Shown: positions 28,088 through 55,660, counted from the first letter of the stretch. The stretch is DNA of 64,000 nt from a virus (IMGVR_UViG_3300025128_005882:1-64000), one strand, 5' to 3'. Numbers and translations: made by a program. Notes: generated by a model not told the origin, from the sequence alone.

Positions 28088-28741
28088 TTATTCAAAAGTT
28101 ATATTAATAACTTCGTTGCAATCTATGTCTTCTTCTTTGTGGTGTTTATACTTTTCGTAAAGGTCTTCACTTACCCACCAATCTTCTATTCTTCCATATC
28201 CATTCAGCACAACATCTGCCCACAAAATGCTGTACCCATAACTAGCCAGTGTTTCACGATATTTTTTATACTCGTCGGCTATTCTCTTGCGGCGGTCTGG
28301 ATAATCTTTTGTAAATGGGCAGTGTTCAGTGGATTGATATAAATTGTGTTCTAAAGTAAGAACTTTAAACTTGTACTTAGACCAATCAAATTCATTGAAT
28401 ACTTTCCACTGTGCATCATCTACGTCTAAAGATATATAATCTATGTTTTCTGGACACCCAATAGATTCTAGAAACTCATTTATGTTGACTTTCAAAAGAT
28501 CTTCGCAGTATACAGTATCTGGTCTTGACTCCTTGACTGCGTTATACCATGCTCTATCATAATCTATCGCTATGCCACCCCACTGTCTATACTCCTCGAA
28601 AAAGTAAGTATTGCTAAAATGGCCAGCGAATAGTGGCGGCAGACCTCCTGTTCCAGCGCCTATGTCTAGGAAAAATCCTTCATCTTTATTCAACAGCTTA
28701 TCGACAAAAACATCTTGTCTTACTTGTGAATTATATAGCAC
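28088..28741 (-). CDS. FkbM-like SAM-dependent methyltransferase
   Basis: A 217-residue protein with a GTG start at 28741 (GGAG and AGG lie just upstream). SAM motif I is FFLDIGAGTGGLPPL, then GGIAIDYDRAWYNAV, DTVYCEDLLKVNINEFL and YISLDVDDAQWKVF, as in FkbM-family methyltransferases. These methylate sugars, lipids or polyketides. It lies between polymerase and glycan genes, so O-methylation of a sugar is the simplest guess. No membrane segment. Confidence 0.8.
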   Translation of the reverse strand: MLYNSQVRQDVFVDKLLNKDEGFFLDIGAGTGGLPPLFAGHFSNTYFFEEYRQWGGIAIDYDRAWYNAVKESRPDTVYCEDLLKVNINEFLESIGCPENIDYISLDVDDAQWKVFNEFDWSKYKFKVLTLEHNLYQSTEHCPFTKDYPDRRKRIADEYKKYRETLASYGYSILWADVVLNGYGRIEDWWVSEDLYEKYKHHKEEDIDCNEVINITFE

Positions 28742-28791: not shown

Positions 28792-30363
28792 CTAAATCTC
28801 AAAAATATTACTAACAATAAAAGAATTATCTTGTTCTGATACACTACCCGAGAATAGTAGATTATTACCCTCATATAACTGGTACTGAAATTTATCTCTA
28901 CATTCTGGGAATACAATTACACTATCTAAGGAACATGTTTCGTCTTCTATAGTTAAGAATGACATATACTTACCTTTTGACTTGCCCTTCTTTATCTTAT
29001 AGTCAGACACTCTTTTTATATTGCCGGCGAGCATTAAGCTCTTGCCCTTCTTTCCCTCCAGCACTTCTTTGCAGGTACTGTTCGCGCCTGATGTGTCGGC
29101 AGTCTCTACCTTAGACATGCTAATTGGACAGCCAAGATACTTAACTTCTTGACCTATGACCCAAGATGGATCGTCTGAAAGGTCATACGGAGGATTATTC
29201 AAGAAATATATCTCATTCTGTATTAGCTGACTTCGTTCTATCTTGCTAGTACCTCCACCTTCTTTCTTCGTTGGCGCGAGGTCTATAAGGCATTTCTCTA
29301 GCGTCGTCCATCTTTTCTTAGGATAGTTTTCTACGACCCACCTAAGCTCTGCGGCTGTCAAAGACCTGAATATTTCGTATTGATATAGTGCTTCATTTCT
29401 TGTAATTCTATCTCTAAAGCCACGAAAAAACCCTACTGACGCTAACGCTTTGAACGCAGTTGAATTTATCTTCTTTGACATATATACCAATACGTCCATC
29501 CACTTTAAATTTTCTGCATCCTTGCCTAGCTCATCAAGCAACTCGTCTACAGCAAGCAGAACTTTGTCCCCAGTTTTACCAGTCAGCGACTTAATGTCTT
29601 TTACGCCAAAGTATAGATTGCCTTTTCTCATGCAAAACTTTTCTGAGAAGTTAGATATATTTGGTGTCTTGGTTTCTATGTTGAATAGCTTAGCGTCACT
29701 AACCAGCTCATATATCTCTTCGTGGGGATCTTGCTTTTCACCCGCATGGTACAGATAGGACAGGAAGAACTCCTGCGTATTGTTGGCCTTGTGAAACGCG
29801 CTCCAATATGAACACATAGCATATGCTACAGCATGAGACTTGTTGAAAGAGTACCTGCTAGACTTCTCAATCCAGCTAAATATTTCGTCCGCTGTTGCTT
29901 CATCAACTGTACCTAGCTTCTTGCAACCCTTCACGAAATCCTTCTTGACTTTTGCCATCAAGTCGGCCTTCTTTTTACCAATAGCTTTTCTGAGGACGTC
30001 AGCTTCTTTTAGGTCAAACCCAGCCAGATTTTGTGCGATCCTCATGGACTGCTCTTGGTAGACTAAAACGCCGTATGTGGGTTTCAGAACATCCTTCAGC
30101 GATTCGTGTAGATAGCTAACCTCTTCTACGCCATGTTTTCTGTCAATGTATCTCTGCGTCATTGACTTACCGTCAGAAATCGCTTTCAGACATCCCGGCC
30201 TGATAAGAGCAACAAGAGCTGCAAGTTCTTCTATGTTGCTTGGCTTTAGCTTCTTAGACCAAGACTTACCAAGATTGCTTTCAAGCTGGAAGACACCTTT
30301 AGTTTTGCCTTCATGAAACAGCTCCCAAGTTTTCTCACACTTGTAGTTAATTTCTCTAGACAT
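28792..30363 (-). CDS. dnaE: DNA polymerase III alpha subunit, C-terminal part (split gene)
   Basis: A 523-residue protein matching the C-terminal half of DnaE. GVFQLES near residue 27 and LVALIRPG, VLVYQEQSMRIAQNLAGF, VLRKAIGKKK, RYSFNKSHAVAYA are typical finger-domain segments, and the end carries an OB-fold (LMLAGNIKRVSDYKIKKG ... FLTIEDET). A start at 30363 gives the usual 8-base overlap with the exonuclease stop, while the in-frame ATG at 30393 would overlap more. The palm catalytic aspartates are not here but in the partner gene at 31023-32657, so the two chains must assemble. Confidence 0.92.
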   Translation of the reverse strand: MSREINYKCEKTWELFHEGKTKGVFQLESNLGKSWSKKLKPSNIEELAALVALIRPGCLKAISDGKSMTQRYIDRKHGVEEVSYLHESLKDVLKPTYGVLVYQEQSMRIAQNLAGFDLKEADVLRKAIGKKKADLMAKVKKDFVKGCKKLGTVDEATADEIFSWIEKSSRYSFNKSHAVAYAMCSYWSAFHKANNTQEFFLSYLYHAGEKQDPHEEIYELVSDAKLFNIETKTPNISNFSEKFCMRKGNLYFGVKDIKSLTGKTGDKVLLAVDELLDELGKDAENLKWMDVLVYMSKKINSTAFKALASVGFFRGFRDRITRNEALYQYEIFRSLTAAELRWVVENYPKKRWTTLEKCLIDLAPTKKEGGGTSKIERSQLIQNEIYFLNNPPYDLSDDPSWVIGQEVKYLGCPISMSKVETADTSGANSTCKEVLEGKKGKSLMLAGNIKRVSDYKIKKGKSKGKYMSFLTIEDETCSLDSVIVFPECRDKFQYQLYEGNNLLFSGSVSEQDNSFIVSNIFEI

Positions 30364-31033
30364 ATAGTTCGCCGTCTGCAAATGCTTTATCAATAGTCAA
30401 GTTTCTATATACAGCTCTATGTGTCTTCATGAATTTAATCATGATATTGGCTGTATCTTTAACGTCTTGCAGTGCATCGTGAGCATTTTCTTTGCTAAGA
30501 CCCATTCTATCTCTCAATGAATCCATGCTAATAGACTTTATTGATGGGTCTCCTTCTGTCCACATAAACATATTATCCATCATGTCTACTTTATAGATCT
30601 TATTAAAAAGCTTTTGCTGCTGTCTTTCTTTGTCGTATGGGCCGTATGCTTTACATAGTCTATCTACGATAATCATATCAAACCCAATGATATTAAACCC
30701 AGCTGGGATTGGAGCAAAGAACTGCGTCCCCTTCCAGTTGTGCTGATTGACAAAATCACAGAACTTTTTCCATACAGTTTTTGGTAGTGGAGCTTTCGCT
30801 AGATCTTCTCTATTCTTACCAGTGATGCGAAGCGCTTCATCCTCTAATGGATCGAAGCCCATTTCAATAGCTTTTTCGTCGTCCAAGACTGGTCGAATCT
30901 CGCTATTAAAAGTACCTTTCAGCTTAAAGTTCCTGCCGTCTAGCGCCAGCGCCGCAATCTGAGTGGGCTGCGTCTTGCGTGGGTTTCTACTTCCAGTTTC
31001 AAAGTCAAATACGATATAGTCTCTAATTGCCAT
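30356..31033 (-). CDS. DnaQ-like DEDDh 3'-5' exonuclease
   Basis: A 225-residue proofreading-type exonuclease. The DEDDh residues are visible: D10 and E12 in FDFETGS, D119 in FNIIGFD, and H185/D190 in NAHDALQDVKDT. Its gene lies between the two halves of the split polymerase alpha subunit, with an 11-base overlap to the N-terminal half and 8 bases to the C-terminal half, so stoichiometric expression is likely. In bacteria this subunit (epsilon) binds alpha; here an alpha-epsilon complex of three chains is the natural inference. Confidence 0.9.
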   Translation of the reverse strand: MAIRDYIVFDFETGSRNPRKTQPTQIAALALDGRNFKLKGTFNSEIRPVLDDEKAIEMGFDPLEDEALRITGKNREDLAKAPLPKTVWKKFCDFVNQHNWKGTQFFAPIPAGFNIIGFDMIIVDRLCKAYGPYDKERQQQKLFNKIYKVDMMDNMFMWTEGDPSIKSISMDSLRDRMGLSKENAHDALQDVKDTANIMIKFMKTHRAVYRNLTIDKAFADGELYV

Positions 31034-32657
31034 CTAATACTTCCTCAATTTTCATAATCTTATCTAGTAAGTTAATTCCTAGTACGTCAAACTTTACGTG
31101 GCCTAGAGCTTCAAGATCAGCCATTTCTAGCCCTGCAATCTTTTCGCCTCCACTCCTTTGGTCTACCATTGGGCAAACCTCGTGTAATCTATCTGAAGAT
31201 ATAACAACGCCAGCGGCGTGCTTACCTTGGGTTTTGAATGTGCCTTCTAAACTAATTGCCTGATCAAAATAATCTGCGTAGTCTCCTTCAAGGTAGCCAG
31301 AGTCGTTCACAAAGCAATAGTCTCGCAACTCTTCTGAGTTATTAATAAGAGCAAATCTAATGATAGAACGATCTTCCTCGTCCATAGCTTGTAGTTGGTC
31401 GGATACGTCGGCTTCGTTAGGTATGCACTTTGATATTACATTCATTTCGCCAAACGAACACGCCTCGTTGATGCGTAATACTTCTTTCAGTGCGCTCCTA
31501 CCTTGCAGTCTACCAAACGTGAGCATCTGACTCACATTATCTTTGCCATATTTGCTTTTAAGGTAGTCAATAATTTCATCTCTTTTCCTGCCGGGAACGT
31601 CGATGTCAATATCAGGTAGTGATACGTGGCCTCCTGTGTTTCTACCGGCGTTATAGAATCGCTCAAATAGCAGGTCATACTCGATTGGGTCGATCTTGGT
31701 GATACCAATTAGATATGAAATCAAGCAACCCGCCGCAGATCCTCTTCCCGGCCCTGATAGCCAACCAGAGTCGTTTACGAAATTAATAATATCTCTAACA
31801 ATTAAGAAGTATCCAAATAGATGAGCGTCGTTGATAACATCGAATTCCGTCTTGAATCTATCCAGATACTTTTGTTTCATGTCTTCTTCAGCAACCTTCC
31901 CAGTTTTTATAAGAAGGTCTCTCCAGCCCTCACGACATAGCTGTTTTAGATAATCTTCTTCAGACTCGCCTGTTGGTGTGGGAAACTCAGGCAACATTGG
32001 AGAACTAAGAATGTCATACTCCTCGCATTTGTCTACAATTTGTTTAACATTCATATCCAAGTCCTCAGTCAGTATTTCACATACTTCTGTAGAGTCAGGA
32101 AGATAGAAGGTGTTTTGCTCAAAGAATTCTCTATTATCAAAATCTTCGTGCTTCGATAACAGTTTATTTATCTTAGGTACTGTCGTCTTCATTTTAGAAC
32201 ATAGTAGTATTCTATGCAGAGGTGCGTCCTCTTTATTTGTGTAATATGTTTCCATGAGTGCTGGCGTTCGTTTGTAGAAGTCCTCGCCCTTGATTGGCGA
32301 GTAGCCAGCTTTGTCTGCCACAGATATGAGGTTGCCTTTTGATGTGACCTTTAGCAAAAACTTTTTATCATAGTTGCCTTCTTCGTCTAGCGAGGACACA
32401 AGTTTAATTAGATCTAGCCATCCGTCTTTGTTTTTGGCGAATAGCGTGAATGTGTCGAACGTGCAGCCAATGATTGGCTTAATGCCGTTGCTTTTGCAGG
32501 CCATAAAGAAGCTGACTGCGCCTGAGATAGATTTATAATCAGCGATGCCACAAGCTTTGTAGCCGTTAGCCTTGCATTTCTCTGCTAACTGCTGTGGCTT
32601 TGAATATCCTTTTAGCAAGCTGTAGTGCGTATAGTTGCACAGTGGAGCCCATTCCAT
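31023..32657 (-). CDS. dnaE: DNA polymerase III alpha subunit, N-terminal part with PHP and palm (split gene)
   Basis: A 544-residue protein. A PHP-like domain (residues 1-100; NYTHYSLL, GIADYKSISG, KPIIGCTF) has lost one His of the metal motif (N8 in place of H), so its metal site is probably impaired. The palm follows: GPGRGSAAG (302-310), D349 and D351 in PDIDID, and D524 in GHVKFDVLGI. The chain ends about 12 residues after that, and the fingers and OB domains are encoded at 28792-30363. A structured leader and AT-rich promoter lie upstream at 32699-32769. Confidence 0.92.
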   Translation of the reverse strand: MEWAPLCNYTHYSLLKGYSKPQQLAEKCKANGYKACGIADYKSISGAVSFFMACKSNGIKPIIGCTFDTFTLFAKNKDGWLDLIKLVSSLDEEGNYDKKFLLKVTSKGNLISVADKAGYSPIKGEDFYKRTPALMETYYTNKEDAPLHRILLCSKMKTTVPKINKLLSKHEDFDNREFFEQNTFYLPDSTEVCEILTEDLDMNVKQIVDKCEEYDILSSPMLPEFPTPTGESEEDYLKQLCREGWRDLLIKTGKVAEEDMKQKYLDRFKTEFDVINDAHLFGYFLIVRDIINFVNDSGWLSGPGRGSAAGCLISYLIGITKIDPIEYDLLFERFYNAGRNTGGHVSLPDIDIDVPGRKRDEIIDYLKSKYGKDNVSQMLTFGRLQGRSALKEVLRINEACSFGEMNVISKCIPNEADVSDQLQAMDEEDRSIIRFALINNSEELRDYCFVNDSGYLEGDYADYFDQAISLEGTFKTQGKHAAGVVISSDRLHEVCPMVDQRSGGEKIAGLEMADLEALGHVKFDVLGINLLDKIMKIEEVLDGN

Positions 32658-33106: not shown

Positions 33107-34318
33107 TTAAGAAAATAGATCAGTAATCACTTTTCCTGAATTAGCTATTTTCATGGGTCTTCCGCTTTTGCTCGTAAATGTAGTGGTCAAGGATATACCA
33201 AGAGCTTTACATACAGATGCCATAATGTCTTGCGAACTATGGGGCTCTGTTTCAACTCGCGTGCCGTCTGAGTTGGTTTCACCGATGGCAATTCCACCGT
33301 TCATGCCAGCTCCTCCAACAGCGACGCTCCAGCTTCGTGCCCAGTGGTCACGGCCAGCGTTTTGGTTGATACGAGGTGTGCGACTAAATTCACCCATCCA
33401 GATTATAGCTGTATCCTCCAATAACCCTCTTTGCTCTAAATCCTCAACTAATGCGCTCATGCCTTTGTCTAACATGGGCAACTTATTGTCTCTTAATGTT
33501 GGGAATATATTCTGGTGATTATCCCAGCCTCCCAAATTGACTTCTATAAATGGGACTCCAACCTCAACAAGCCGTCTAGCCATTAAGCATGACTTGCCGA
33601 AGTTGTTGTCTCCATATCTATCTTTAACCGCCTCGGGTTCACCTGCCACTTTGAACGCTTCCATTTGTTCACTAGTCAGCAAATTGAACGCTTGCCTGAG
33701 TACGTCTCTGTGGTCGCTAGCTATTGAGCCTCTCTTTTGATTTATAAAACCATTTTCTATAACATCTAAAGCATAGGCTCTTTGAAAGAACCTTTGGTCT
33801 GGTTTGACATCTAGGTTACGAACTTGGCCATTGCTGTTAACTACAAACGGCGCATGATTCATACCTAGAAAACCAGCTCCAATACTTCCTCCACCTACAG
33901 AAACAAACTGCGGAATTTCTAGATTTTCTCGTCTTAGCTGATGCGATAAAACGGCACCATAGCTAGGATGCTCAATACTTGGGTTGGGAACATATCCAGT
34001 GTGCATGTAATATCGCCCACGCATGTGGTCAGCTTCACGAGTACTCATGGATCGGACAATGGCCATGTGATGCATTTGCTTTGCCATCAAAGGCATATGT
34101 TCGCAAATCTCCACATCTCCCGTTGTGGATATTGGTCTAAATGGCCCGCCTGTCGGCGCTTCTGGCTTTAAGTCCCAAATATCCATGGTCGAAGGGCCAC
34201 CACCCATCCATAATAATATAGCTGATTTATTTTTTTTCCTCAGCTCGTCAGCGTTTGCGCTTAATAGTTCTACGAGGGGAAGTGAAGAAAATCCTGCTAA
34301 AAAACTTCGTCTATTCAT
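33107..34318 (-). CDS. DUF1501 protein A with Tat-type leader
   Basis: A 403-residue DUF1501 protein (alkaline phosphatase/sulfatase superfamily clan). It begins MNRRSFLAGF, a twin-arginine leader, so it is probably exported folded. Landmarks are LLWMGGGPSTMDIWD (37-49), HMRGRYYMHTGY near 98, GGWDNH (263-268), GEFSRTP (309-315) and AGRDHW (321-326), and a GRP...GKVITD end shared with its paralogs. Function of the family is unknown; a hydrolase of phosphate or sulfate esters is inferred from the fold. A ribosome site AAGGA precedes the ATG. Tandem hairpins precede it at 34342-34427. Confidence 0.88.
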   Translation of the reverse strand: MNRRSFLAGFSSLPLVELLSANADELRKKNKSAILLWMGGGPSTMDIWDLKPEAPTGGPFRPISTTGDVEICEHMPLMAKQMHHMAIVRSMSTREADHMRGRYYMHTGYVPNPSIEHPSYGAVLSHQLRRENLEIPQFVSVGGGSIGAGFLGMNHAPFVVNSNGQVRNLDVKPDQRFFQRAYALDVIENGFINQKRGSIASDHRDVLRQAFNLLTSEQMEAFKVAGEPEAVKDRYGDNNFGKSCLMARRLVEVGVPFIEVNLGGWDNHQNIFPTLRDNKLPMLDKGMSALVEDLEQRGLLEDTAIIWMGEFSRTPRINQNAGRDHWARSWSVAVGGAGMNGGIAIGETNSDGTRVETEPHSSQDIMASVCKALGISLTTTFTSKSGRPMKIANSGKVITDLFS

Positions 34319-34341
34319 AATATTATTCCTTTACTTAGTAA

Positions 34342-34427
34342 GGCTTGAGCGCCCGATAAAATCCTTCTCAGCGAACGCCCAAGCCAATTTCGATGCTAGC
34401 TCTCGCCGCTCGGTCGAGATCGAAATT
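34342..34427. other. Two tandem hairpins between the lipoprotein and DUF1501-A genes
   Basis: Hairpin 1 pairs GGCTTGAGCG at 34342-34351 with CGCCCAAGCC at 34376-34385 (one mismatch). Hairpin 2 pairs AATTTCGAT at 34386-34394 with ATCGAAATT at 34419-34427, perfect over 9 bp. Neither is followed by a T-run, so a terminator is unlikely on either strand. In the leader of DUF1501-A they may act as an RNA stability or processing element. Confidence 0.6.
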
Positions 34428-34593
34428 AACTAATACAATTTTCACATTTGCAGATGTCAATGTCACAAATGCAATCCGTCTCTACACAAGGACAACCGTC
34501 TGCGCACAAAGCACAGGCGACAGGCTTATCACCCTGACAACCAAGTGTCATCATAAGTCCAAAAACAAAAATAAAACTAAGTAGTGTCTTCAT
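34426..34593 (-). CDS. Cysteine-rich lipoprotein, metallothionein-like
   Basis: A 55-residue protein from the ATG at 34593, which has a strong GGGGG-rich ribosome site; a longer frame upstream overlaps the neighbour and is not needed. Residues 1-18 form a signal peptide (KTLLSFIFVFGLMMTLG) with Cys19 as the lipid-modified residue, although the -3 position is Thr rather than Leu. Nine further Cys follow in the 36-residue mature part (27, 30, 34, 36, 41, 43, 48, 50, 53), in CxxC, CxC and CxCxC spacing, with acidic residues between. That spacing suggests metal binding. Its neighbours on both sides are the DUF1501 module, so an envelope metal-storage or delivery role is possible. Confidence 0.65.
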   Translation of the reverse strand: MKTLLSFIFVFGLMMTLGCQGDKPVACALCADGCPCVETDCICDIDICKCENCIS

Positions 34594-34606
34594 CTGGATC
34601 ACCCCC

Positions 34607-35638
34607 TTACCATTTTCTGCAAGACCAATAACGAGCTTTCCAGCGCGGGCCGGGATTATCGCAGTTATGTCTTGCTCTAAAACTTTTACGACGTTTTGGA
34701 TTATCCTTTTTAATTTCCATATTAGGATCTCCAAAGTTAACTTTAACAACGTTTCCTTTCTGATTTTTTACATAAACAGAAAACTTTTTTGGGCCATCAG
34801 GAGTTCTAAATGGTTTCCCAAGTTTGACTTTTCTACCCTGATACTCTGCAGCCTTGCCTTTGTATACTAGGTCAGTGCCGTCTTTTTTGTATACACCCTT
34901 TCTAGCGTAGTTGTAAATTTCTCCAGTCTTTGGGTTTTCATACTTGTATGCGGCTCTGGATTTCTTAGGATGACCCTTTGGTAACAGGTCATTGTCTTGA
35001 GTATAGTTTGAATTAGAAGGTCTGCCAGTCCTTAGAAGTTTTAGAAAAGCATTGACTCTAGCAATGGCCCAACCATGACGACTCATCTTGGGAGCATGAC
35101 TACTTGAGTATGCACCAGCGCCCCTTCTATAAACAGCCTTTAGCATCCCAAGAGAAGCTTTTGAACCTTTACCTTTGGCGTTATGCTCTGCAACCTTCTT
35201 AGAAAGTTGAGCAGTGACCTCTTTGCTAAAAGTAATCTTACCACTAGGATTCTTTGCGCTGTCTGGCTTATTTTTCTTAGAGCCTTTTTTCTGATCCTTC
35301 TTTGGAGCAGGAGTCCTGCGAGGATCTTTTGAACTAGGCTTGTCCGATTTAGCTTTTTTAAGTTCTTCTTGGCTTGGTCTACCTTCTTTTTCAGTCTTAG
35401 CTGGTTTGTAGTTCTTACCTTCTCGCTCTTTCTTCTTGCGAATGTTTTCCCAAAGACCGGGCTTTGCTTGTGACACGTCCCAGTCTTCGATTTCAGAATT
35501 TTCATAATAAACCTCAGAAGCCTGAACGTATTCGTCTTCTGTCGGTACATAAAAATTAGTTTCGTTTAACTCTTCTTCAGATCCATAATTATCAAAGTAA
35601 TATTTCTCATCTGCTTGAGCTATATAATTTTTAGACAT
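34607..35638 (-). CDS. Basic phage protein with DUF5824-like and DUF6321-like segments
   Basis: A 343-residue protein: an acidic, Tyr/Glu-rich N-terminus (1-60), a Lys-rich disordered middle (about 65-135), a globular middle domain (AVYRRGAGAYSSSHAPKM, HGWAIARVNAFLKLL) like DUF5824, and a C-terminal domain with VNFGDPNMEIKKDNP, FRARHNCDNPGPRWK and ARYWSCRKW resembling DUF6321. I recall such domains in phages and large viruses as uncharacterised; names are from memory. It has a GGAG site. It lies between DUF1501-B and the lipoprotein, interrupting the envelope set. Confidence 0.7.
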   Translation of the reverse strand: MSKNYIAQADEKYYFDNYGSEEELNETNFYVPTEDEYVQASEVYYENSEIEDWDVSQAKPGLWENIRKKKEREGKNYKPAKTEKEGRPSQEELKKAKSDKPSSKDPRRTPAPKKDQKKGSKKNKPDSAKNPSGKITFSKEVTAQLSKKVAEHNAKGKGSKASLGMLKAVYRRGAGAYSSSHAPKMSRHGWAIARVNAFLKLLRTGRPSNSNYTQDNDLLPKGHPKKSRAAYKYENPKTGEIYNYARKGVYKKDGTDLVYKGKAAEYQGRKVKLGKPFRTPDGPKKFSVYVKNQKGNVVKVNFGDPNMEIKKDNPKRRKSFRARHNCDNPGPRWKARYWSCRKW

Positions 35639-35647
35639 TGTTTACTC

Positions 35648-36955
35648 CTAAACTATTAAGTCTTGTATAACTTTGCCGCCATCTACGATTTCTATAGGTC
35701 TATCTCCGGGAGCCATTAATTCTTTATCAGCGACGATACCAATTCTGTTATATATTGTTGCTGCCCAGTCTTCAACAGTAAGGGCATTTTCTTCTGGTTC
35801 ACTTGCGGTTGCGTTTGATGATCCGTAGACCATTCCTTTTTGTATGCCGCCTCCAGCCATAACTACACTGAATACTTTAGGCCAATGATCACGGCCAGCA
35901 TTTGCGTTGATTTTTGGTGTGCGACCAAATTCAGATGCTAAGCATACCAATGTAGAATCTAACATTCCACGATCATCTAGGTCAGCAATTAGAGCCGCAA
36001 GACCTTGATCTAATGCGGGGACTTGTCTACGAATACCATTCTCAATGCTGTCGTGCATATCCCAGCCACCATAAGTCAATGTTACAAATCTTGTACCAGC
36101 CTCTACTAACCTTCTAGCAAGAAGCATCCTAGCACCTGCGGTGTTTCTACCGTACCTATCTCTAGTGGCAGCATCTTCTTTGTTGATATCGAAGGCATCT
36201 CTGGCTTTTTCGCTAGAGATTAAGCTATAGGCGCGGTCGTAGAAAGAGTCTACTGCGTCTAATGAATCTGACTTTTCTTTGCTGGCAAAATAATCATTTA
36301 CCGCACCAAGCATTTTACGCCTTGTTCCAAACCTGTTGTCATTCACGTTGTTGGGAAGTCTAAGGTCACGAACCTGAAAACCATCACTAGCTGGGTCAGA
36401 ACCCAAGCTAAATCCAGAAAACGAACTGCTTAAATATCCAGTGCCTGCAAACTCATTAGGCTGATTGGGGATACAGACGTAAGGTGGTAAGTTATGACGT
36501 GGGCCAAACTCATGTGCAACCACTGAGCCAATGGACGGATATTGGAGTGCTGGGCTAGGTCGATAGCCAGTAAACATATTATGTGTACCTCGTTCATGAG
36601 CTGCTTCTCCATGTGTCATACTACGAATGATGGTCATCTTATCTGTAATCTTAGCGGTCTTAGCTAACGTTTCATTTAATCTAATTCCGGGAACTACAGT
36701 TTCAATACTAGACATAGGGCCTCTATACTCTAGCGGAGCAAACGGCTTAGGATCAAAAGTTTCTTGATGAGCCATACCTCCGGGAAGATATATAAAGATT
36801 ACACTCTTAGCTGGGCCTTCTATACTTTCATAAAACTTCTGGTCAGCCTGAGCTTCTTGCATACGAAAGTAATCAGATAGAGAAATCCCTAGCCCTCCTA
36901 AGAATCCCACCTGTAAAAATGACCTTCGTCCTAAATTATTTCCTCTACATTTCAT
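35648..36955 (-). CDS. DUF1501 protein B with Tat-type leader
   Basis: A 435-residue DUF1501 protein. The leader reads NLGRRSFLQVGFLGG (RR at 10-11), a twin-arginine signal. It retains FIYLPGGMAHQETFD, HERGTHNMFTGY, LTYGGWDMH, ASEFGRTPKINA, NAGRDHW and the closing GDRPIEIVDGGKVI. Closest in motif spelling to paralog C, more distant from A, so the set is not a recent duplication. ATG overlaps the stop of C (TAATG). Exported hydrolase-like role is inferred. Confidence 0.88.
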   Translation of the reverse strand: MKCRGNNLGRRSFLQVGFLGGLGISLSDYFRMQEAQADQKFYESIEGPAKSVIFIYLPGGMAHQETFDPKPFAPLEYRGPMSSIETVVPGIRLNETLAKTAKITDKMTIIRSMTHGEAAHERGTHNMFTGYRPSPALQYPSIGSVVAHEFGPRHNLPPYVCIPNQPNEFAGTGYLSSSFSGFSLGSDPASDGFQVRDLRLPNNVNDNRFGTRRKMLGAVNDYFASKEKSDSLDAVDSFYDRAYSLISSEKARDAFDINKEDAATRDRYGRNTAGARMLLARRLVEAGTRFVTLTYGGWDMHDSIENGIRRQVPALDQGLAALIADLDDRGMLDSTLVCLASEFGRTPKINANAGRDHWPKVFSVVMAGGGIQKGMVYGSSNATASEPEENALTVEDWAATIYNRIGIVADKELMAPGDRPIEIVDGGKVIQDLIV

Positions 36956-38214
36956 TATAGTATTACCTTTGCTTCACCTTCCAATAAATATCTTGGTCTT
37001 CCACCGTTATCAACACGCTGAGTGCTCTGTTCTATTCCAAAGTGGTCAAACAGTGTAGCCTGCAAGTCAAGTGGGCCTACGGGGTTTTCGATTGGACTAT
37101 ATGATCTGTCTGAAGCCCCAATAGTTCTACCTGTTTGATAGGAACCTCCAGCCATCATCATTGGCGTAATAGCAGGCCAGTGATCTCTACCAGCGTTGGC
37201 ATTGATTTTTGTTCTTCCAAACTCTCCAGTCACTACTAGCAATACCTTTTCGCTCAGGCCTCGCTGGTCTAGATCTTCCAAAAATCCTGCGATGGCCTTG
37301 TCTATTGGGCTTACCTTGGTTTTCAGCGCGTTAGAGATGTTACTATGCATGTCCCATCCGCCATAATGAAGAGTTACAAATTTTGTACCATGCTGCACAA
37401 GGCGGCGAGCTAGCAACATTTGTTCGCCAATGTCATTCGCTTTTTCTGACCCATACAGGGCTTTAGTTTGTTCCGTTTCTTTATCTGTTGCAAACGCATC
37501 TTTGGCTGAACCAAGAATAACATCGTAAGCCTGACCTTTGTAAAACCCAACTGATTCAGCTCCTGTTCCAGATATATCTTTAGCCGCTGAGCCTATAGCT
37601 CCTAAGAGTTGTTTTCTGTTGCTGAATCTGTCGATTTCAATTCTTGGTGTGAGATTGTCTTTATTGGACGGATCAAATGGTTTAAATGCTCCACCCAGCC
37701 AAGCACCTTCATCACCTTCGATTTTACCTTGTTTAACATAAGTTGGTACTCCATTCTGGGGGTGATTCGCGCCATAGACAGAGGAAACAATAGATCCAAA
37801 AGAGGGGTACTTGGCTATAGATGTGGTTGTTCTTTCTGGGTTATAATGCCCAGTCATCATGAAGTGAGTACCCTGCCTATGAGATGAATCTTTATGGCTA
37901 AAAGAGTTGACGACATTGAGCTTGCTTGTGTGTTTAGCTAGCTCTGTCCAGTCAGCGCCAAGAGTGATGTTTGTTTTTGGGTCATGAATAGCTCCGTTGA
38001 TTGGCTGCCATTCAGTTGGAACTGTATCGTTAGGGGCGTGGAATGTTTCAAACTGAGTTGGCCCTCCTCCAAGCCACACCCAAACAACGGCTTTATCTTC
38101 ATACGACAGAGCGTCTTGAGCCAAGGCGTAATCAGACAAACCAACGGCACTTAGTCCAGCACCAATACTCCCTACTCGCAAAAAATTTCTTCTATCGTAT
38201 ATGAAGTCTAGCAT
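36955..38214 (-). CDS. DUF1501 protein C with Tat-type leader
   Basis: A 419-residue DUF1501 protein. Leader DRRNFLRVGSIGAGLSA has the twin-arginine pair at residues 8-9. Landmarks: VWVWLGGGPTQFETF, GTHFMMTGHYNPE, LHYGGWDMH, TGEFGRTKINA (the Pro after Arg-Thr is missing, unlike A and B), NAGRDHW and the final GRPRYLLEGEAKVIL. Co-transcribed with B, and its start overlaps the upstream nuclease-like gene by 7 bases. The loss of Pro is a point worth testing for activity. Confidence 0.88.
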   Translation of the reverse strand: MLDFIYDRRNFLRVGSIGAGLSAVGLSDYALAQDALSYEDKAVVWVWLGGGPTQFETFHAPNDTVPTEWQPINGAIHDPKTNITLGADWTELAKHTSKLNVVNSFSHKDSSHRQGTHFMMTGHYNPERTTTSIAKYPSFGSIVSSVYGANHPQNGVPTYVKQGKIEGDEGAWLGGAFKPFDPSNKDNLTPRIEIDRFSNRKQLLGAIGSAAKDISGTGAESVGFYKGQAYDVILGSAKDAFATDKETEQTKALYGSEKANDIGEQMLLARRLVQHGTKFVTLHYGGWDMHSNISNALKTKVSPIDKAIAGFLEDLDQRGLSEKVLLVVTGEFGRTKINANAGRDHWPAITPMMMAGGSYQTGRTIGASDRSYSPIENPVGPLDLQATLFDHFGIEQSTQRVDNGGRPRYLLEGEAKVIL

Positions 38215-38705
38215 TTTGATCTCCTAAATTCGTTGAGTTCTGAAATTGCAACGTTGTGACAATCTGCTCTTACAACAAAATTATTTGAGGGGTCTATCTG
38301 TCCCTTCTTTAAATGTCGGGACTTCTCGAAGTATTCATCATGCCCAAGCCAACCAAGAACCCAAGCCCTTCCCCATCGTCTATTTTTGTTTTCTACCCTT
38401 ACAAAGACATATCTATCACATTGTTGCTTTGTATTAAAATTAGCAACTGAGCAGTCATAGTATGGCTTTGGTTGTGAGGTACATCTCTTCGTTTTAACGT
38501 CGTACTTAGTTCCGTCGTTATCTACAATGTCGTAATCATAAGTGTTACTTATAGAACCTTCTATGACTACGTTTGCAATCTCTTCACCAATGAAGCCAGC
38601 TATATTGCCATCGCCCTTCATGATGGAGTTCTTAATAACTCCCATCTCTCTGGATTTGGCCCATGCTCTTTTCTTCATGTCCTCTGTGATTTCTACTTGA
38701 ATCAT
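38208..38705 (-). CDS. Possible PD-(D/E)XK nuclease-like phage protein
   Basis: A 165-residue protein starting at ATG 38705 (AAGGAAAA site). The segment GFIGEEIANVVIEG, then YDYDIVDNDGTKYDVKTKR provides a Glu and a D-x-K-T-K strand, the arrangement of the PD-(D/E)XK fold. The rest is alpha/beta with Trp-rich VENKNRRWGRAWVLGW. Related small proteins occur in other phages. A nuclease role is inferred from the motif; the substrate is unknown. Next to a RecB-like nuclease gene. Confidence 0.5.
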   Translation of the reverse strand: MIQVEITEDMKKRAWAKSREMGVIKNSIMKGDGNIAGFIGEEIANVVIEGSISNTYDYDIVDNDGTKYDVKTKRCTSQPKPYYDCSVANFNTKQQCDRYVFVRVENKNRRWGRAWVLGWLGHDEYFEKSRHLKKGQIDPSNNFVVRADCHNVAISELNEFRRSKC

Positions 38706-38715
38706 AGTATTTTCC

Positions 38716-39729
38716 TTATCCCGGAGCCTCATAGTGGCCCACGCTAAATCCTTTGGCGGTGCATCTTTTTACGGTTTCATTCATTCCGTGCTTTTTAAGG
38801 TGCTCCTCTGTATATATACACATATTTTGGTCTGTTCCCGGCCAGTTGTTCTTATAAAAATGACAAAGCTTATTGCACTTCCAATGTTTTCTTGAGTAAG
38901 ACATTGGCTTTGGCTCTTGATTTCTGCTGATCTGCTGAAATCTTAGCTTTAACATCTCCAAAAACTTTTCTTGGTCTTTCTTGTCAAAGCACATCGAGAA
39001 AGGCCCGCCATCTCTAATATAGAATATCGTCATGATTGACTGCTCATAATCAGGAAATAGTTTTGATATTGCGTAATTATATAGTAATAATTGGGGGTCT
39101 GAACATAGCTTCTCATATGTCTTCTCTTCGCCCGTTGCCCAGTCAAGCCTTCTTCCTGTTTTCCAGTCAACGACTTCAATTATACCATCGTCTACCTCAG
39201 TTACAAGATCTATCGTACCTTTTATTGCCAAGTTCCCTGTAATTTTTTGTCCATCGGGCATTTCGTAGTCGAACTTAGCCCAATCTTCTTCTATCTCAAT
39301 ATCAAAGTGTGGCTCAGCGGCAACAATCTTTCTGTTTCTGGGATCAAAAATCCCATTATTATATTCAATCGCTTCCCAAGTCAACTCTTTGCAGAATTTA
39401 TAATCTGACTTAGTATACTTATGAGTGCAGTTACTAGTGTACCAATCAAAACTTTGCTGCAAAATATCGTTTACAAAATCCTCACTTTTTAGTTTTTTGC
39501 GGTTAAACTTTATATCGCCAAGCGCATCGTCAGCAAGTAGCATCTTCTTGCTATCCTGCTGTAGGTGTTGACAACCCGCTAGCACCTCCATAACTTTGTG
39601 AACCACAGTCCCAAGCTGAGCTTTTTTGCCAGAGGTGGATTGGTGGCCAAGCACGTAAGTCAGAAAATATTGCATCTGACAATACGAGTAGTTATTAAAA
39701 CTTGAACTTCTTATGTAAGTCACTAACAT
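38716..39729 (-). CDS. RecB/Cas4-like PD-(D/E)XK nuclease with cysteine cluster
   Basis: A 337-residue protein. GTVVHKVMEVL (His of the motif), IEVVDWKTGR (Asp and Lys of the PD-(D/E)XK core) and QLLLYNYAI, the C-terminal Q-x3-Y segment, match the RecB/AddB/Cas4 nuclease family. One Cys near residue 17 (SYCQMQYFLTYVLG) and three near the C-terminus (WKCNKLC, QNMCIYTEE) fit the four-Cys Fe-S pattern of this family. In phages it processes DNA ends in recombination. No helicase domain is attached. Confidence 0.85.
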   Translation of the reverse strand: MLVTYIRSSSFNNYSYCQMQYFLTYVLGHQSTSGKKAQLGTVVHKVMEVLAGCQHLQQDSKKMLLADDALGDIKFNRKKLKSEDFVNDILQQSFDWYTSNCTHKYTKSDYKFCKELTWEAIEYNNGIFDPRNRKIVAAEPHFDIEIEEDWAKFDYEMPDGQKITGNLAIKGTIDLVTEVDDGIIEVVDWKTGRRLDWATGEEKTYEKLCSDPQLLLYNYAISKLFPDYEQSIMTIFYIRDGGPFSMCFDKKDQEKFLEMLKLRFQQISRNQEPKPMSYSRKHWKCNKLCHFYKNNWPGTDQNMCIYTEEHLKKHGMNETVKRCTAKGFSVGHYEAPG

Positions 39730-40475
39730 GTGATCTCCAGTTCGCTATAAATTTTAGCCAGAGCATTAAACAGACTAGTCATGTCTGTATTATTGACCAC
39801 GTAGTCAAAGTTGCTCCAGTCGTAGTTTTCTTTATCAAGAGCGTTTTCACTTGAGTGACTATCCTGAGTAAACTCTCTAGTCAATCTTATTACTTTGCCT
39901 CCAGCATCCTTTATTGATTCTACCTCGTTCGGAAATCTCACATCCGCTATTATGGCTAAGTCACTCTTTTCTCTGGTTATAGTTTTGATTGCATATTCTA
40001 CCCAAACATTGTTGTACATCTTCCTCATAATGTCAGTTCCAAAGTACTGCAATAATTCTCTTGAGGTCATTGCTCCTCTATTCTTATTAAGGCTGCTATT
40101 ACTCCAAGTCGGAACGTCCTCCCATAGGACTTTTGTCTGCGTGTTCTTATCGTCTTCGGTGCCATATACTTGGCTTCTAGTGAGACCGAAGAACTCCATA
40201 CACAACAATTTTAAGCCGTCAGCAAAGCTGTATAATTTTACATGGGGCCACATATTATAATTAGCATATTCAACAAAAGAAGAATCTTTTCTGGTGACAT
40301 CTAAAAGTCCATACTCCTCATCTCCTTCAATGTCTGTTTTAATTACAAGCGCGCCATTGTTGTCGATATTAAAATCTTCTACCATGCCCATTTTCTTTAA
40401 TACTAGCCCGTGAAGGTAGTTTGCGGCGGTGTTTTTGCCAGCTTGTTTCTTTCCAGATATTCCAATTATATTCAT
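39723..40475 (-). CDS. Deoxynucleoside monophosphate kinase
   Basis: A 250-residue P-loop kinase. GISGKKQAGKNTAANYL carries the Walker A, and IIADVRFPNEVESIKDAGG with VIRLTREF is the typical LID-side signature of T4 gp1-type dNMP kinases. It converts dNMPs to dNDPs for the ribonucleotide reductase and polymerase route. Length near the T4 enzyme (241). TAATG overlap with the primase gene. Confidence 0.85.
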   Translation of the reverse strand: MNIIGISGKKQAGKNTAANYLHGLVLKKMGMVEDFNIDNNGALVIKTDIEGDEEYGLLDVTRKDSSFVEYANYNMWPHVKLYSFADGLKLLCMEFFGLTRSQVYGTEDDKNTQTKVLWEDVPTWSNSSLNKNRGAMTSRELLQYFGTDIMRKMYNNVWVEYAIKTITREKSDLAIIADVRFPNEVESIKDAGGKVIRLTREFTQDSHSSENALDKENYDWSNFDYVVNNTDMTSLFNALAKIYSELEITC

Positions 40476-41491
40476 TAATACATACCTTTTAGTTGCGGTA
40501 ACACGTTTGTTTTTATATCTTCTACAGACATATCTCCAACATCTTTTCTAGATAGTCTTGGAAATACGACTTTGAACATTCTGCTCATGTCCCTTTGTAT
40601 TTTCATCTTCGCTTCTCTTCCGGCTTGATCGTTGTCAGTAAGAACAACCAGCTTTGTAATGCCACTTTTTTCAAGTATCGACTTCTGCACTGGACTTACT
40701 GATTTGCCAAATATACTTATGGCGTTTTTAACGCCAGCTTCGTAAAGTTTCCAAACATCCCCTTGGCCTTCAGTTATAAATAAACAAGACTTTTCTTGCG
40801 CTTTTTGTATAGCTCTATGATAATTGTAAAGGTATTTGTTTTTATTGAACCCTCTAGTAAAAAGAAACTTGGGCTTCAAAAAACTCTGCATTGACCTACC
40901 TATGTAGGCCACAACCTTTTCACCATTCAGCGAGTGTACTGGTATAATGGCTCTGGACACCATAGAAGATTTCTTCTGCACACAGTCGCCCACTTGGAAA
41001 TGAAGCAATGTAGAGTCTGCAAAGCCTCTTGACTGAAAGTAATCTGAGGGATGCATAACGTTACAATCTATCCGAACTTCCTGATCGTCGTAGGAGGGGA
41101 CGTCCTCTTTGGAGAACATCTTGACCATAGAGACAAACTGGTCATCCTCTTCTTGCTTTTCTACATGCACAGACTTATTATCTATATTCAATATTTTACA
41201 AGCCCATTTAAGTGCGCCGCTAAAACCTACGTCAGACTCTGCCTCAACAGATAAGACTCCTCTTATGAGTCCAAATATGTCATTGCCAAATTCTTGCTGG
41301 CATCCTCTAGTCCAACAGCTCCAGATATGCCTATCAGAATTGTAGGAAAAACTGTTTGGGTTATCACTGTCTTCATGTACTGGGCAAGAACAAGTTATAT
41401 TCTGTCCATTCTTTTGATAGTCTATTTCTAGCTCTGAAAATACCAACTCAAGATTATTCCCAAGGAGCTTTTTGATCTTCTTCAAGTCCAT
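40475..41491 (-). CDS. DnaG-like DNA primase (zinc finger plus TOPRIM)
   Basis: A 338-residue primase. The zinc module is CSCPVHEDSDNP ... IWSCWTRGCQQEFG (CHC2-type), and the TOPRIM domain is LFITEGQGDVWKLYEAG (Glu) then VVLTDNDQAGREAKM (DxD). The usual RNA-polymerase core lies between. Shorter than cellular DnaG (about 580) because the C-terminal helicase-binding domain is missing; the helicase is separately encoded next upstream. Start ATG at 41491 has a GGAGG site inside the helicase tail. Confidence 0.9.
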   Translation of the reverse strand: MDLKKIKKLLGNNLELVFSELEIDYQKNGQNITCSCPVHEDSDNPNSFSYNSDRHIWSCWTRGCQQEFGNDIFGLIRGVLSVEAESDVGFSGALKWACKILNIDNKSVHVEKQEEDDQFVSMVKMFSKEDVPSYDDQEVRIDCNVMHPSDYFQSRGFADSTLLHFQVGDCVQKKSSMVSRAIIPVHSLNGEKVVAYIGRSMQSFLKPKFLFTRGFNKNKYLYNYHRAIQKAQEKSCLFITEGQGDVWKLYEAGVKNAISIFGKSVSPVQKSILEKSGITKLVVLTDNDQAGREAKMKIQRDMSRMFKVVFPRLSRKDVGDMSVEDIKTNVLPQLKGMY

Positions 41492-42944
41492 CCTCTTCTA
41501 CCTCCTCGTTAACATTATCTAAGTTTTCAACATCTATTAAACCAGTATCTTCTGATGGCATCACAAGAAATTCATTTCTAGTTCTTAGCTCTTGCAGTTT
41601 TGCATGTTCGCCAAGCATCCGCATATTGATGTAGTCTCCGTCGTCTAAACCTGCGCCATGTCTTGAGACAATGGGAACAAGCTTCCTGTTCCCTGCTCTT
41701 GGGCCGTCTTCAGCCAGCTCCTCTGGCGATTTTATTTTAAATATGGAGAATGATGTACATAACCAAATAAGTCTGTCAGAACCGCTTACAGCATCGGTGG
41801 ACTCTTTTGTAATACCGTCTCTGTTTAATTGCACAAACGATAGGCAGGGGAAGTCGTACTTGACAGCCAAGTTATGAAGGTTTGTTATTTGAAAACCGAG
41901 AGCTTGATATTCTTGTATATTATTTGTTATTGATGTAGAAGACATAAGTTTTAAATAGTCATAAACAACTACACAATCATTTGTTCTTCCATTTTCATCT
42001 TGTTTTACATCTTGTATAATCCAGCGTTTAATAATATTTAGTATCTGCTCAAATGGTTTGCCCGCAACACTGACGTAGTTATAAGGTATGTCTTGTATCT
42101 GTTCAACAGCTTCGTGAACTCTCTGACTCTTCTCGTCGTCATCTACAAACTTACCAGTAGCTACTTCGTTGATCGGAACTCCGCTTAGGTTGGCTATGAT
42201 TCTGTTAAGATGATCCTCTTTTGACATTTCAGTATCTAGAACCAATACTGGTGTTCCTTCTCTTGCTACGTTGACGGCAACATTGTCTGCAAAAACACTT
42301 TTACCGACCTTTGGTCTAGCGGCTACCAGATCTACGCATTTTCTTCTTAGTCCACCGCCTATTGCTATATCGTATCTTGGAAACCCCGTTGGTACGCCTA
42401 TAACATCACACTTATTCTCAGATAAGTATTCAATGTAATCTGTTATATCTTTGCCAATCTTCTCAGGCTTTTCTCCTCCATCGTCCTCCCTGAGAAAATC
42501 CATTACAGGCTCTTCTAGTTTCTGGATAATTTCGTCGATAGTCTCGCTACCGTTGATTTTGTCTACGTCTTTGTGTATCTTGTCTGTTAGTTTTTTAATC
42601 TTGCGAGCAAACTCAAACTTCTTTATCTGTACAGCGAAATTAAAAATGTTGTCTTGACTTACTGGAAAATCAAAAAGAGACTTTATGTATTCAAGCTCTG
42701 ATTTGGACTCTACTCGTTCTGAGTGCCCAAGTCTTGATGCCGCAGATAATACAGATGGGAGATCAACGTCAAGATTGTTTTCAATTACATCTTTTACGCA
42801 AGTAAACAAAACTTGATTATTAGGAATACCAAATGTGTAGCTATCAACAATATCAGCAACTTCAACATAAGCATCTATGCCATGCTGAAATAATCCAGCA
42901 AGCAAAGCTCTTTCTGCTCCAGCGTCTGTTAAATGTTGTTCCAT
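41454..42944 (-). CDS. dnaB: DnaB-family replicative helicase
   Basis: A 496-residue helicase starting at ATG 42944 (GGGAGG site). The N-terminal domain (AGAERALLAGLFQHG, VSQDNIFNFAVQIKKF) is the usual DnaB N-domain; the RecA-like domain has Walker A ARPKVGKS, VLVLDTEMSKEDHLNR and the late SFVQLNRDGITKES with Q/R residues of motif H4. Overlaps the primase start by 38 bases. It unwinds DNA 5'-3' at the fork. Confidence 0.92.
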   Translation of the reverse strand: MEQHLTDAGAERALLAGLFQHGIDAYVEVADIVDSYTFGIPNNQVLFTCVKDVIENNLDVDLPSVLSAASRLGHSERVESKSELEYIKSLFDFPVSQDNIFNFAVQIKKFEFARKIKKLTDKIHKDVDKINGSETIDEIIQKLEEPVMDFLREDDGGEKPEKIGKDITDYIEYLSENKCDVIGVPTGFPRYDIAIGGGLRRKCVDLVAARPKVGKSVFADNVAVNVAREGTPVLVLDTEMSKEDHLNRIIANLSGVPINEVATGKFVDDDEKSQRVHEAVEQIQDIPYNYVSVAGKPFEQILNIIKRWIIQDVKQDENGRTNDCVVVYDYLKLMSSTSITNNIQEYQALGFQITNLHNLAVKYDFPCLSFVQLNRDGITKESTDAVSGSDRLIWLCTSFSIFKIKSPEELAEDGPRAGNRKLVPIVSRHGAGLDDGDYINMRMLGEHAKLQELRTRNEFLVMPSEDTGLIDVENLDNVNEEVEEDGLEEDQKAPWE

Positions 42945-42946
42945 CA

Positions 42947-43300
42947 CTACCTCCCTATACACCTATCGCAGCGCCAGAATTCTCCGCTGATTAAGCTAGG
43001 GTGTACCGAAAATACTTTGCCACATACGTGACACTTCTTTTCAACCTTGTGCGCTTTTTTCCTGTTTCTTGGAGTTGGCTCAATATCTGGAGTATCAATG
43101 TCTTTGTGTTCACCGTTGTCGCTCCAAGTATTCTTTCTAGCCTTTACAGTTTCTCTTCTCGGCCCTGATTCTTTTCGCTGCACTCTGAAGTTACTGTCTA
43201 CTGAAACATCCTCATCATCGGCAACGCTCTCTTGCACTTCTTCTTGTTTTTTAGCAAGTAGCTTTTGCAGCTCCTCTATGCTTAAATCTTCTGGATTCAT
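42947..43300 (-). CDS. Zinc-ribbon protein, replication-associated
   Basis: A 117-residue protein. A charged, disordered N-terminal 80 residues (EEVQESVADDEDVSVDS, PRNRKKAHKVEKK) precede a C-terminal zinc ribbon: CHVCGKVF and RCDRCIGR. No catalytic motif. It is located between the helicase and coiled-coil protein, with a four-base overlap; the conserved neighbourhood suggests a role in loading or regulating replication proteins, but this is inference. Confidence 0.7.
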   Translation of the reverse strand: MNPEDLSIEELQKLLAKKQEEVQESVADDEDVSVDSNFRVQRKESGPRRETVKARKNTWSDNGEHKDIDTPDIEPTPRNRKKAHKVEKKCHVCGKVFSVHPSLISGEFWRCDRCIGR

Positions 43301-54207: not shown

Positions 54208-54597
54208 TTAGTCGAAAATGTCAGACGGACTTATGCAAGGCTTGTCGTCTGAGGATGTGTTTAGTACGCTGCCCAGCCTTGCGGCGACGGCTATATACAA
54301 TTCTGCTTTTCCTTGTTCTATAAATCCATCCTTTATCATTTCCAGTGTTTCTGCAAAGTAGTCGTTAGAATATATACCCTTTAAAAGCTCAGATAGAAAG
54401 AGCGTACTTTCAACGTCTGACTCAGCTATCTGTATATCTACAAATGGAACGCCTTCATTAGTTATGTAGTAAGTAATGGCGGCGCATATATCTTTAACAT
54501 CTAATTCTACTTTATCATCGCCTTCTTCTTCTTTTTCCTCTTTAGTATCTATCTCTAACTCTAGTTGCTCTTTGTGCTTCTTAAAAAAATTAAACAT
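54208..54597 (-). CDS. Hypothetical acidic protein
   Basis: A 129-residue protein. It begins with a Lys/Glu-rich charged tract (KEEKEEEGDDKVELD), then a helical domain (LFLSELLKGIYSNDYFAE, ELYIAVAARLGSVL). No catalytic motif. Overlaps the glycosyltransferase gene upstream by 8 bases, although its own function looks unrelated to sugars. Not recognised. Confidence 0.55.
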   Translation of the reverse strand: MFNFFKKHKEQLELEIDTKEEKEEEGDDKVELDVKDICAAITYYITNEGVPFVDIQIAESDVESTLFLSELLKGIYSNDYFAETLEMIKDGFIEQGKAELYIAVAARLGSVLNTSSDDKPCISPSDIFD

Positions 54598-55660
54598 TTT
54601 GTATCGCTTTCCGTATTAGCTTTGCGCTATTTTCCCAACTAAATCTTTTAGCTGTATCAACACCTTGAGGATTTGTTGATATGTTATTTTCGTGTACAAA
54701 CTTCATGCGATTAGCTAGCCTTGAGACTTCTTTATCGCCAAGTTTTGCCCACTCGCCAGTGTTTCCATCAAACCATTTACCATCATATGCTGGCTCTACT
54801 TCTTCTATCGGGATAAGAAAGGCGTTCTCTTCAGTGCAAAATTCTGTATGGGCTGAAAAAAATGTAGTTATTACGGGCTTGTTACAAGCCATCATTTCTA
54901 GTAGCTCTAAGTTCCACCCTTCAGCCCTAGCTGGAAATACACCACATGTGGTTTGTGCCATTATATTATACACCTCTTGCTGTGTTTCAACTCTATTCAT
55001 AATCTTTATTTTGCTACCAAGAGGACATGATTTATACATATCAATCCACCTCTTTTCCTCAGACTCTGTATTAAAAGGGTTTTGGCACATCATCCATAAT
55101 TCTACGTTATCCTGTTGAGAAAAAGCCTCACAGAAAGCTCTAGGCATTATGTCGTGGCCTTTTCTAACCTCCCACTTACCGCAGTTAAAGAATATTGTAG
55201 CATCTTTTTTTTGTATGTCAATGTCTTTATTTGAAAATACAGAAGAATCTACACCTAAAGGTATAACATGCACGTTTTGAGGTGATATGTTAATTCTACT
55301 GATTATGACCTGTCTTGCCCATTCAGAGCAAACAAATATTTTATCCAAGCTATTCAGGTGGTGTAGCTCAATTTCGTTAAAGTTGTTTAGCTCAAAGATT
55401 GGAAATCCTATTTTTATATTGTTACCAACAAATTGAGCCATGTCGTTCTGATGCCATATTCTTATGCAAGGCGCATCAAAGTCAGGTCGTTTAGAGTTTC
55501 TAATCATTTCGGCAACCCTGCTATGATCTTCCTGAGAAGTTACAGATGGTTGACCAATAGGCCATAAAGATACTGGCTCAATGTCATCAAGTTCTTTACA
55601 TATATTAAGTCCAGCTACACCGTAGCCTAGCTGATTAATTGGTGATATAATATTTAACAT
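54590..55660 (-). CDS. GT4 family glycosyltransferase
   Basis: A 356-residue GT-B protein with NQLGYGVAGLNICKELD (acceptor domain), VHVIPLGVDSSVF, FFNCGKWEVRKGHDIMP and EGWNLELLEMMACNKPVITT (nucleotide-sugar site). It opens the second glycan cluster and its stop overlaps the charged protein gene. Transfers a hexose with retention; specificity unknown. Confidence 0.85.
   Translation of the reverse strand: MLNIISPINQLGYGVAGLNICKELDDIEPVSLWPIGQPSVTSQEDHSRVAEMIRNSKRPDFDAPCIRIWHQNDMAQFVGNNIKIGFPIFELNNFNEIELHHLNSLDKIFVCSEWARQVIISRINISPQNVHVIPLGVDSSVFSNKDIDIQKKDATIFFNCGKWEVRKGHDIMPRAFCEAFSQQDNVELWMMCQNPFNTESEEKRWIDMYKSCPLGSKIKIMNRVETQQEVYNIMAQTTCGVFPARAEGWNLELLEMMACNKPVITTFFSAHTEFCTEENAFLIPIEEVEPAYDGKWFDGNTGEWAKLGDKEVSRLANRMKFVHENNISTNPQGVDTAKRFSWENSAKLIRKAIQNV

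Follow-up and report, generated by a model that had tools for sequence, protein, structure and literature searches.

Introduction

In Escherichia coli, the replicase is proofread by epsilon, a separate DEDDh enzyme, and PolC is a single chain whose PHP domain contains the inserted exonuclease domain. Jumbo phages of group 2.2 encode a split minimal DNA polymerase III (Pol III) alpha as two proteins, which have been proposed to rebuild the enzyme (PMC7824862). Splitting of a nucleotide reductase gene by a homing endonuclease has left two functional peptides (PMC10448857), and genes fractured by split inteins with a free-standing endonuclease were described by Dassa et al. 2009, in the form in which that work is cited in PMC10448857 and PMC6892783. 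Here we analyse a stretch of 64,000 nucleotides from an uncultivated virus record (IMGVR_UViG_3300025128_005882:1-64000), in which the gene for Pol III alpha, dnaE, is divided into two genes with a DEDDh exonuclease gene between them. The whole stretch is called the window, and its coordinates are used throughout. Since the same break is kept in at least 206 distinct relatives, the split is a real and stable trait of a large group of uncultivated bacterial viruses.

The two halves of DnaE

The preliminary description of the window had assigned the PHP domain, the palm and three catalytic aspartates to an N-terminal gene and the fingers and OB fold to a C-terminal gene. Both assignments were borne out. 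The N-half matched the Pfam families PHP (5.6e-18) and DNA_pol3_alpha (8.2e-69), the C-half matched DNA_pol3_finger (7.4e-50), and each half spans its Pfam domain almost end to end. The catalytic residues D349, D351 and D524 of the N-half were read directly in the sequence and line up with the E. coli LPD-D-D and VKFD motifs. An alignment to intact DnaE had been proposed as a check. In a comparison with the sequences of solved structures, the N-half covered residues 12-564 of E. coli DnaE and the C-half was matched strongly to 594-841 and weakly in the OB region up to 1059. The halves are complementary along the E. coli protein (12-564 and 594-1059) and no motif is lost at the break, which lies just after the third catalytic aspartate, as had been described. 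The C-half of the window begins 9 residues ahead of its E. coli match. Judged from these alignments, the break falls at the palm/fingers boundary. In E. coli alpha (structure 2HNH) the fingers begin at about residue 561, and the limits of the two Pfam families agree with a domain boundary there.

A PHP domain followed by a Pol III palm with three catalytic aspartates, as is typical for a C-family DnaE, is present, as are the fingers and the C-terminal OB fold, the latter with a weak match by sequence. The single polypeptide typical of this family is replaced by two open reading frames (ORFs) with a full gene between them, and the split protein works like DnaE only if the halves assemble. The halves were modelled separately with AlphaFold2. 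Both models were confident, with a predicted local distance difference test score (pLDDT) of 88.6 and a predicted template modelling score (pTM) of 0.85 for the N-half and 86.9 and 0.67 for the C-half, and both matched Pol III alpha structures. At its end the C-half model has beta strands, which could be aligned to full-length Pol III alpha. The PHP motifs read THYS (for HxH) and GIADYK (for (T/A)DH), and the metal site of the N-half PHP domain seems degenerate, with residues lost.

Conservation of the split in related viruses

With the N-half as query, 56 viral loci were matched, and profiles of all three proteins found at least several hundred loci, with at least 214 distinct exonuclease sequences once duplicates were removed. 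Both the 3' end of the N-half gene and the 5' end of the C-half gene are included in 206 of these 214 distinct loci. The preliminary description had looked to relatives for the same gene order, and it was found: the order N-half, exonuclease, C-half is kept in at least 206 distinct viral loci, and the halves are in one ORF in none of the 206 (among the matches listed). When the same method was applied to bacterial and other phage dnaE genes as controls, from which the known split isolates phiT1, phi19:2 and Jayan had been left out, all 85 were one ORF. Across 156 loci among the matches listed, the stop of the N-half deviates from one common position by no more than −3 to +17 residues. The same order was found in L275, a contig of a Flavobacteriales metagenome-assembled genome. 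Three profile scans, a further scan started from a divergent member and another made on genome contigs showed no unsplit member of the clade among the matches listed, so that rare unsplit members may still exist.

In a tree built from the N- and C-halves, the 34 representatives including the window formed one clade with a support of 100 and a long stem. The split polymerases form one clade with this support, and a single ancestral break is the simplest reading. In all three genes the proportion of non-synonymous differences (pN) was 0.03-0.24 versus 0.66-0.89 for synonymous differences (pS), indicating purifying selection. Among the isolate phages there was no close relative, the best matches being about 30-40% identical.

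The exonuclease gene between the halves

That a DEDDh exonuclease gene lies between the halves with overlaps of 11 and 8 bases was confirmed. The protein matched RNase_T in Pfam (PF00929, 6.8e-12) and phrog_192, annotated as DNA polymerase exonuclease subunit, in PHROGs, and the DEDDh residues D10, E12, D119, H185 and D190 are invariant in 28 sequences. No match to the PDB was found by phmmer, and a profile search of the PDB gave weak partial matches only, to the PolC exonuclease and to exonuclease I. Among the isolate phages there were six distant matches only, all in Bacteroides phages; in DAC19, the one of the six that was opened, no dnaE adjoins the exonuclease homologue. Given the degenerate look of the N-half's PHP metal site, the exonuclease is probably the proofreader, acting in trans, as would follow from what is known of PHP and epsilon.

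The exonuclease of the window is 95% identical to that of L004:7631-8296, with the flanking halves at 75% and 79%. A recent exchange of the exonuclease gene is possible; of the three genes, however, it is also the one that is best conserved everywhere.

Inserts and split inteins at the locus

The preliminary description had taken the three genes for a translationally coupled unit. This fits the window, where both junctions overlap and a GAGG Shine-Dalgarno-like motif precedes the N-half and the exonuclease genes, but it is not a fixed feature of the group, since both junctions are tight in only 45/156 distinct loci among the matches listed and most of the remaining loci carry extra DNA at one junction or at both. 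No obvious GAGG motif was seen ahead of the C-half in the window, as would be expected if the C-half relies on reinitiation. Among the same listed matches, at least 150 bases lie between the N-half and the exonuclease in 73/156 distinct loci and between the exonuclease and the C-half in 50/156. The overlap lengths at the junctions vary (−19, −14, −11, −8, −5 and −1), and many relatives have whole genes of 200-1300 bases within one or both junctions.

At the exonuclease/C junction, 26 inserts form one cluster, of which the member tested is an endonuclease VII. Further inserts are HNH, FkbM methyltransferase, glycosyltransferase-like and uracil-DNA-glycosylase-like genes, and one recurring insert resembles, by eye, a PD-(D/E)XK nuclease. 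Endonuclease VII or HNH genes were found at the exonuclease/C or the N/exonuclease junction in dozens of relatives; both joints are insertion sites for homing-type endonuclease genes. Between the halves of the window there is no free-standing homing endonuclease and the exonuclease is there instead. A search of the window's record for Endonuclease VII gave no match, with the controls also silent.

Three further observations concern such inserts. A methyltransferase-like gene of the window at 28088-28741, just downstream of the C-half, resembles by eye L174:5338-5991, an insert between the N-half and the exonuclease; it seems that cargo genes are mobile in this region. At 38208-38732, a window protein of 174 amino acids (aa) resembles by eye a recurring joint insert (for example L065:4828-5319 and L049:1380-1862). 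Its DVKTK-like motif suggests a PD-(D/E)XK nuclease, and no match was found in PHROGs for its type. L092, L094 and L137 have an insert between the N-half and the exonuclease that resembles a family 4 uracil-DNA glycosylase; its match in PHROGs is to part of a DNA polymerase family.

At the ends facing the break no intein halves were found in the window and, on the N side, in 156 loci, and there was no Rfam match in 26-34 kb of the window. Split inteins were found at two other sites of the relatives' dnaE (Table 1). The first is GPGRG/SAAG, with the slash marking the break, where intein halves are also present in L118, L391 and L409 and where the nuclease of L051 shows a weak T7 endonuclease I-like match. 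The second, FNK/SHA, lies four residues beyond the cyanobacterial split-intein site Y/CFNK. L040 additionally carries an uninterrupted intein at RPG/CTK, and the L051 polymerase is divided into four parts that surround the exonuclease.

Proposed assembly of the divided polymerase

We favour, with a probability of about 0.8, a replicase assembled non-covalently from two alpha chains with the exonuclease as proofreader. In such a scheme a single break at the palm/fingers boundary would have divided dnaE in the common ancestor, and a proofreading exonuclease gene would have come to occupy the gap. The three proteins would be made in order from one message. The N-half with PHP, palm, thumb and the three catalytic aspartates and the C-half with fingers and OB fold would fold separately and bind without splicing, rebuilding an active polymerase, and the DEDDh exonuclease would bind to give proofreading in trans. 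The halves are probably the phage's own replicase, since no family A (PolA) or family B (PolB) polymerase was found in 12 family records of up to 205 kb, and since the window encodes a DnaG-like primase, a DnaB-like helicase and two single-stranded DNA-binding proteins (SSBs). A beta clamp was likewise not found in the 12 records, and host factors are therefore probably used.

Some points speak against this assembly from two chains. The pTM of the C-half is modest and the matches to full-length structures have a high root-mean-square deviation. The synonymous sites are mostly saturated, so that the ratio of non-synonymous to synonymous rates (dN/dS) itself is not measurable. The records are classed as linear and are possibly fragments, so another polymerase or a clamp may lie outside them. 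A stricter form, in which the three chains are an obligate complex, the exonuclease helps to join the halves at the palm/fingers joint during translation and the gene order is part of the assembly, appears rather unlikely. Under this form the further split inteins would, in some members, give four alpha pieces plus the exonuclease (L051).

Could each half instead have a role of its own, such as taking the place of components of the host Pol III holoenzyme or disturbing them? The lack of a beta clamp in the phage records would fit, but the polymerase motifs of both halves are under purifying selection, the halves are always found together and in order, and no other replicase was seen in the 12 records, which makes this improbable. 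It is even less probable that some unrecognised mechanism, a diverged split intein or RNA trans-splicing, restores a single chain from the halves. The true split inteins elsewhere in the relatives' dnaE do indicate that the enzyme tolerates trans-splicing. However, in 156 loci the N-half finishes −3 to +17 residues from the profile end, which leaves no room for the N-part of an intein at the break. An intein there was rejected on this lack of extra N-side residues, in line with the preliminary description. The C-half of the window starts only a few residues ahead of its match, as given above, and no Rfam intron was seen in 26-34 kb of the window. Programmed frameshifting or ribosomal bypass could use the short overlaps at both window junctions to make an N-exonuclease-C fusion protein; we consider this very improbable, and a frameshift fusion was rejected on the variable overlaps (−19 to −1) and the genes of 200-1300 bases inside the junctions of many relatives. 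An assembly or sequencing artefact might be suspected in an uncultivated virus record. With a complete exonuclease gene between the halves, at least 206 distinct loci from many samples and the Flavobacteriales contig L275, we give it almost no weight, and an assembly error was ruled out by the distinct relatives. The preliminary description had thought both assembly error and frameshifting unlikely, and this view was upheld.

As to the origin of the break, dnaE may first have been cut by a homing endonuclease gene, or by a split intein together with its endonuclease, which was later replaced by the exonuclease gene. We hold this only tentatively; it is compatible with the assembly from two alpha chains. 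Split inteins with free-standing endonucleases have fractured this same dnaE at two further sites, and in dozens of relatives a junction is occupied by an endonuclease VII or HNH gene. Against this, wherever an endonuclease was seen at the break the exonuclease was present too, and insertion after the split would leave the same picture.

Taken together, our results indicate that a bacterial-type replicase can stay permanently divided at the palm/fingers joint across a deeply diverged and widespread viral clade, and that a proofreader gene can be fixed in the gap clade-wide. The locus offers a natural split site for a C-family polymerase, can serve to test whether gene order guides assembly, and allows intein-free and split-intein fission of one gene to be compared.

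Other features of the window

The start of the C-half was placed at the ATG at 30363, which fits the relatives; the ORF as listed opens at the TTG at 30393. The SSB-like protein encoded downstream of the C-half is a probable co-functional replication gene. Three DUF1501 proteins are encoded at 33107-38214. DUF1501 is known mainly from Planctomycetes and relatives, and the trio may be a clue to the host or to horizontal transfer. Apparent glycosyltransferase, epimerase and sugar-nucleotide genes at 4167-24958 and 54590-59294 make up about a third of the record. Two members of this block were tested, and the block suggests glycan modification by the phage.

Table 1. Features of the divided dnaE locus, its context in the window and split inteins in related loci (L numbers)
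Feature	Position	Strand	Remarks
DnaE N-half (alpha-N): PHP, palm, thumb	31023..32657	(-)	544 aa, ATG start, Pfam
DEDDh 3'-5' exonuclease (epsilon-like) gene	30356..31033	(-)	225 aa, RNase_T
DnaE C-half (alpha-C): fingers, tail, OB fold	28792..30363	(-)	523 aa, ATG start
Overlap of N-half stop and exonuclease start, 11 bases, ATGGCAATTAG	31023..31033	(-)	
Overlap of exonuclease stop and C-half start, 8 bases, ATGTCTAG	30356..30363	(-)	
SSB-like protein, downstream, PF00436	27755..28069	(-)	context
DnaG-like Toprim primase	40475-41491	(-)	context, same phage
DnaB-like helicase	41454-42962	(-)	context, same phage
Split inteins at GPGRG/SAAG, DnaE active-site region	L051:721-3638, L174:2575-5345, L382:897-4030		free-standing endonuclease between
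Split inteins at FNK/SHA	L040:8473-12112, L056:8409-11353, L051:4982-7694		different free-standing endonuclease kind

Comparison with known systems

The isolate Rossellomorea phage phiT1 (PV767480, gp20/gp19/gp18; L440) has its DnaE split at the same palm/fingers boundary, with halves of 573 and 469 aa and, as in the window, no intein seen. It differs in having a 49-aa ORF and no exonuclease between the halves, and its PHP motifs look intact, keeping HLHSH and TNHG. Since phiT1 lies outside the window's clade, grouped with Bacillus/Geobacillus phages (support 80), its split is independent. The Cellulophaga phages phiST, phi19:2 and phi13:1 and Bacillus phage Jayan also have DnaE in two neighbouring genes (the sequence was read for phi19:2 and Jayan). 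In these, however, the break is about 190 residues earlier, at N-half positions 343 to 348-351 around the first two catalytic aspartates, and there is no exonuclease between the halves.

In the jumbo phages, too, the catalytic module of Pol III alpha is made as two proteins, but their version is minimal, without PHP and accessory domains, with genes far apart and together with a family B polymerase (PMC7824862). In contrast, the window has the PHP domain, adjacent genes and no PolB found. Cyanobacterial DnaE is likewise encoded in two genes; there the break FAEY/CFNK is inside the fingers and the halves are rejoined by a split intein. FAEY/CLSYDTEIL was read in Calothrix and Dulcicalothrix, and the N-intein half in L277 and L290. 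The break of the window is about 171 residues upstream of this site and has no intein, so the difference from the cyanobacterial site that the preliminary description had named stands. Fractured genes with split inteins are seen at other dnaE sites in some relatives, whereas the window break is without intein and has the exonuclease in place of a homing endonuclease. With PolC the locus shares an exonuclease coded within the polymerase region, but as a separate gene between palm and fingers.

The split nucleotide reductase (PMC10448857) is the closest functional precedent. In the literature searched, no description was found of a phage DnaE whose two halves flank an exonuclease gene. In itself the split is not unique, as phiT1, the Cellulophaga phages and the jumbo phages (PMC7824862) show. 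We conclude that split DnaE as such is already known and that the alpha-exonuclease-alpha unit as a clade-wide trait is new.
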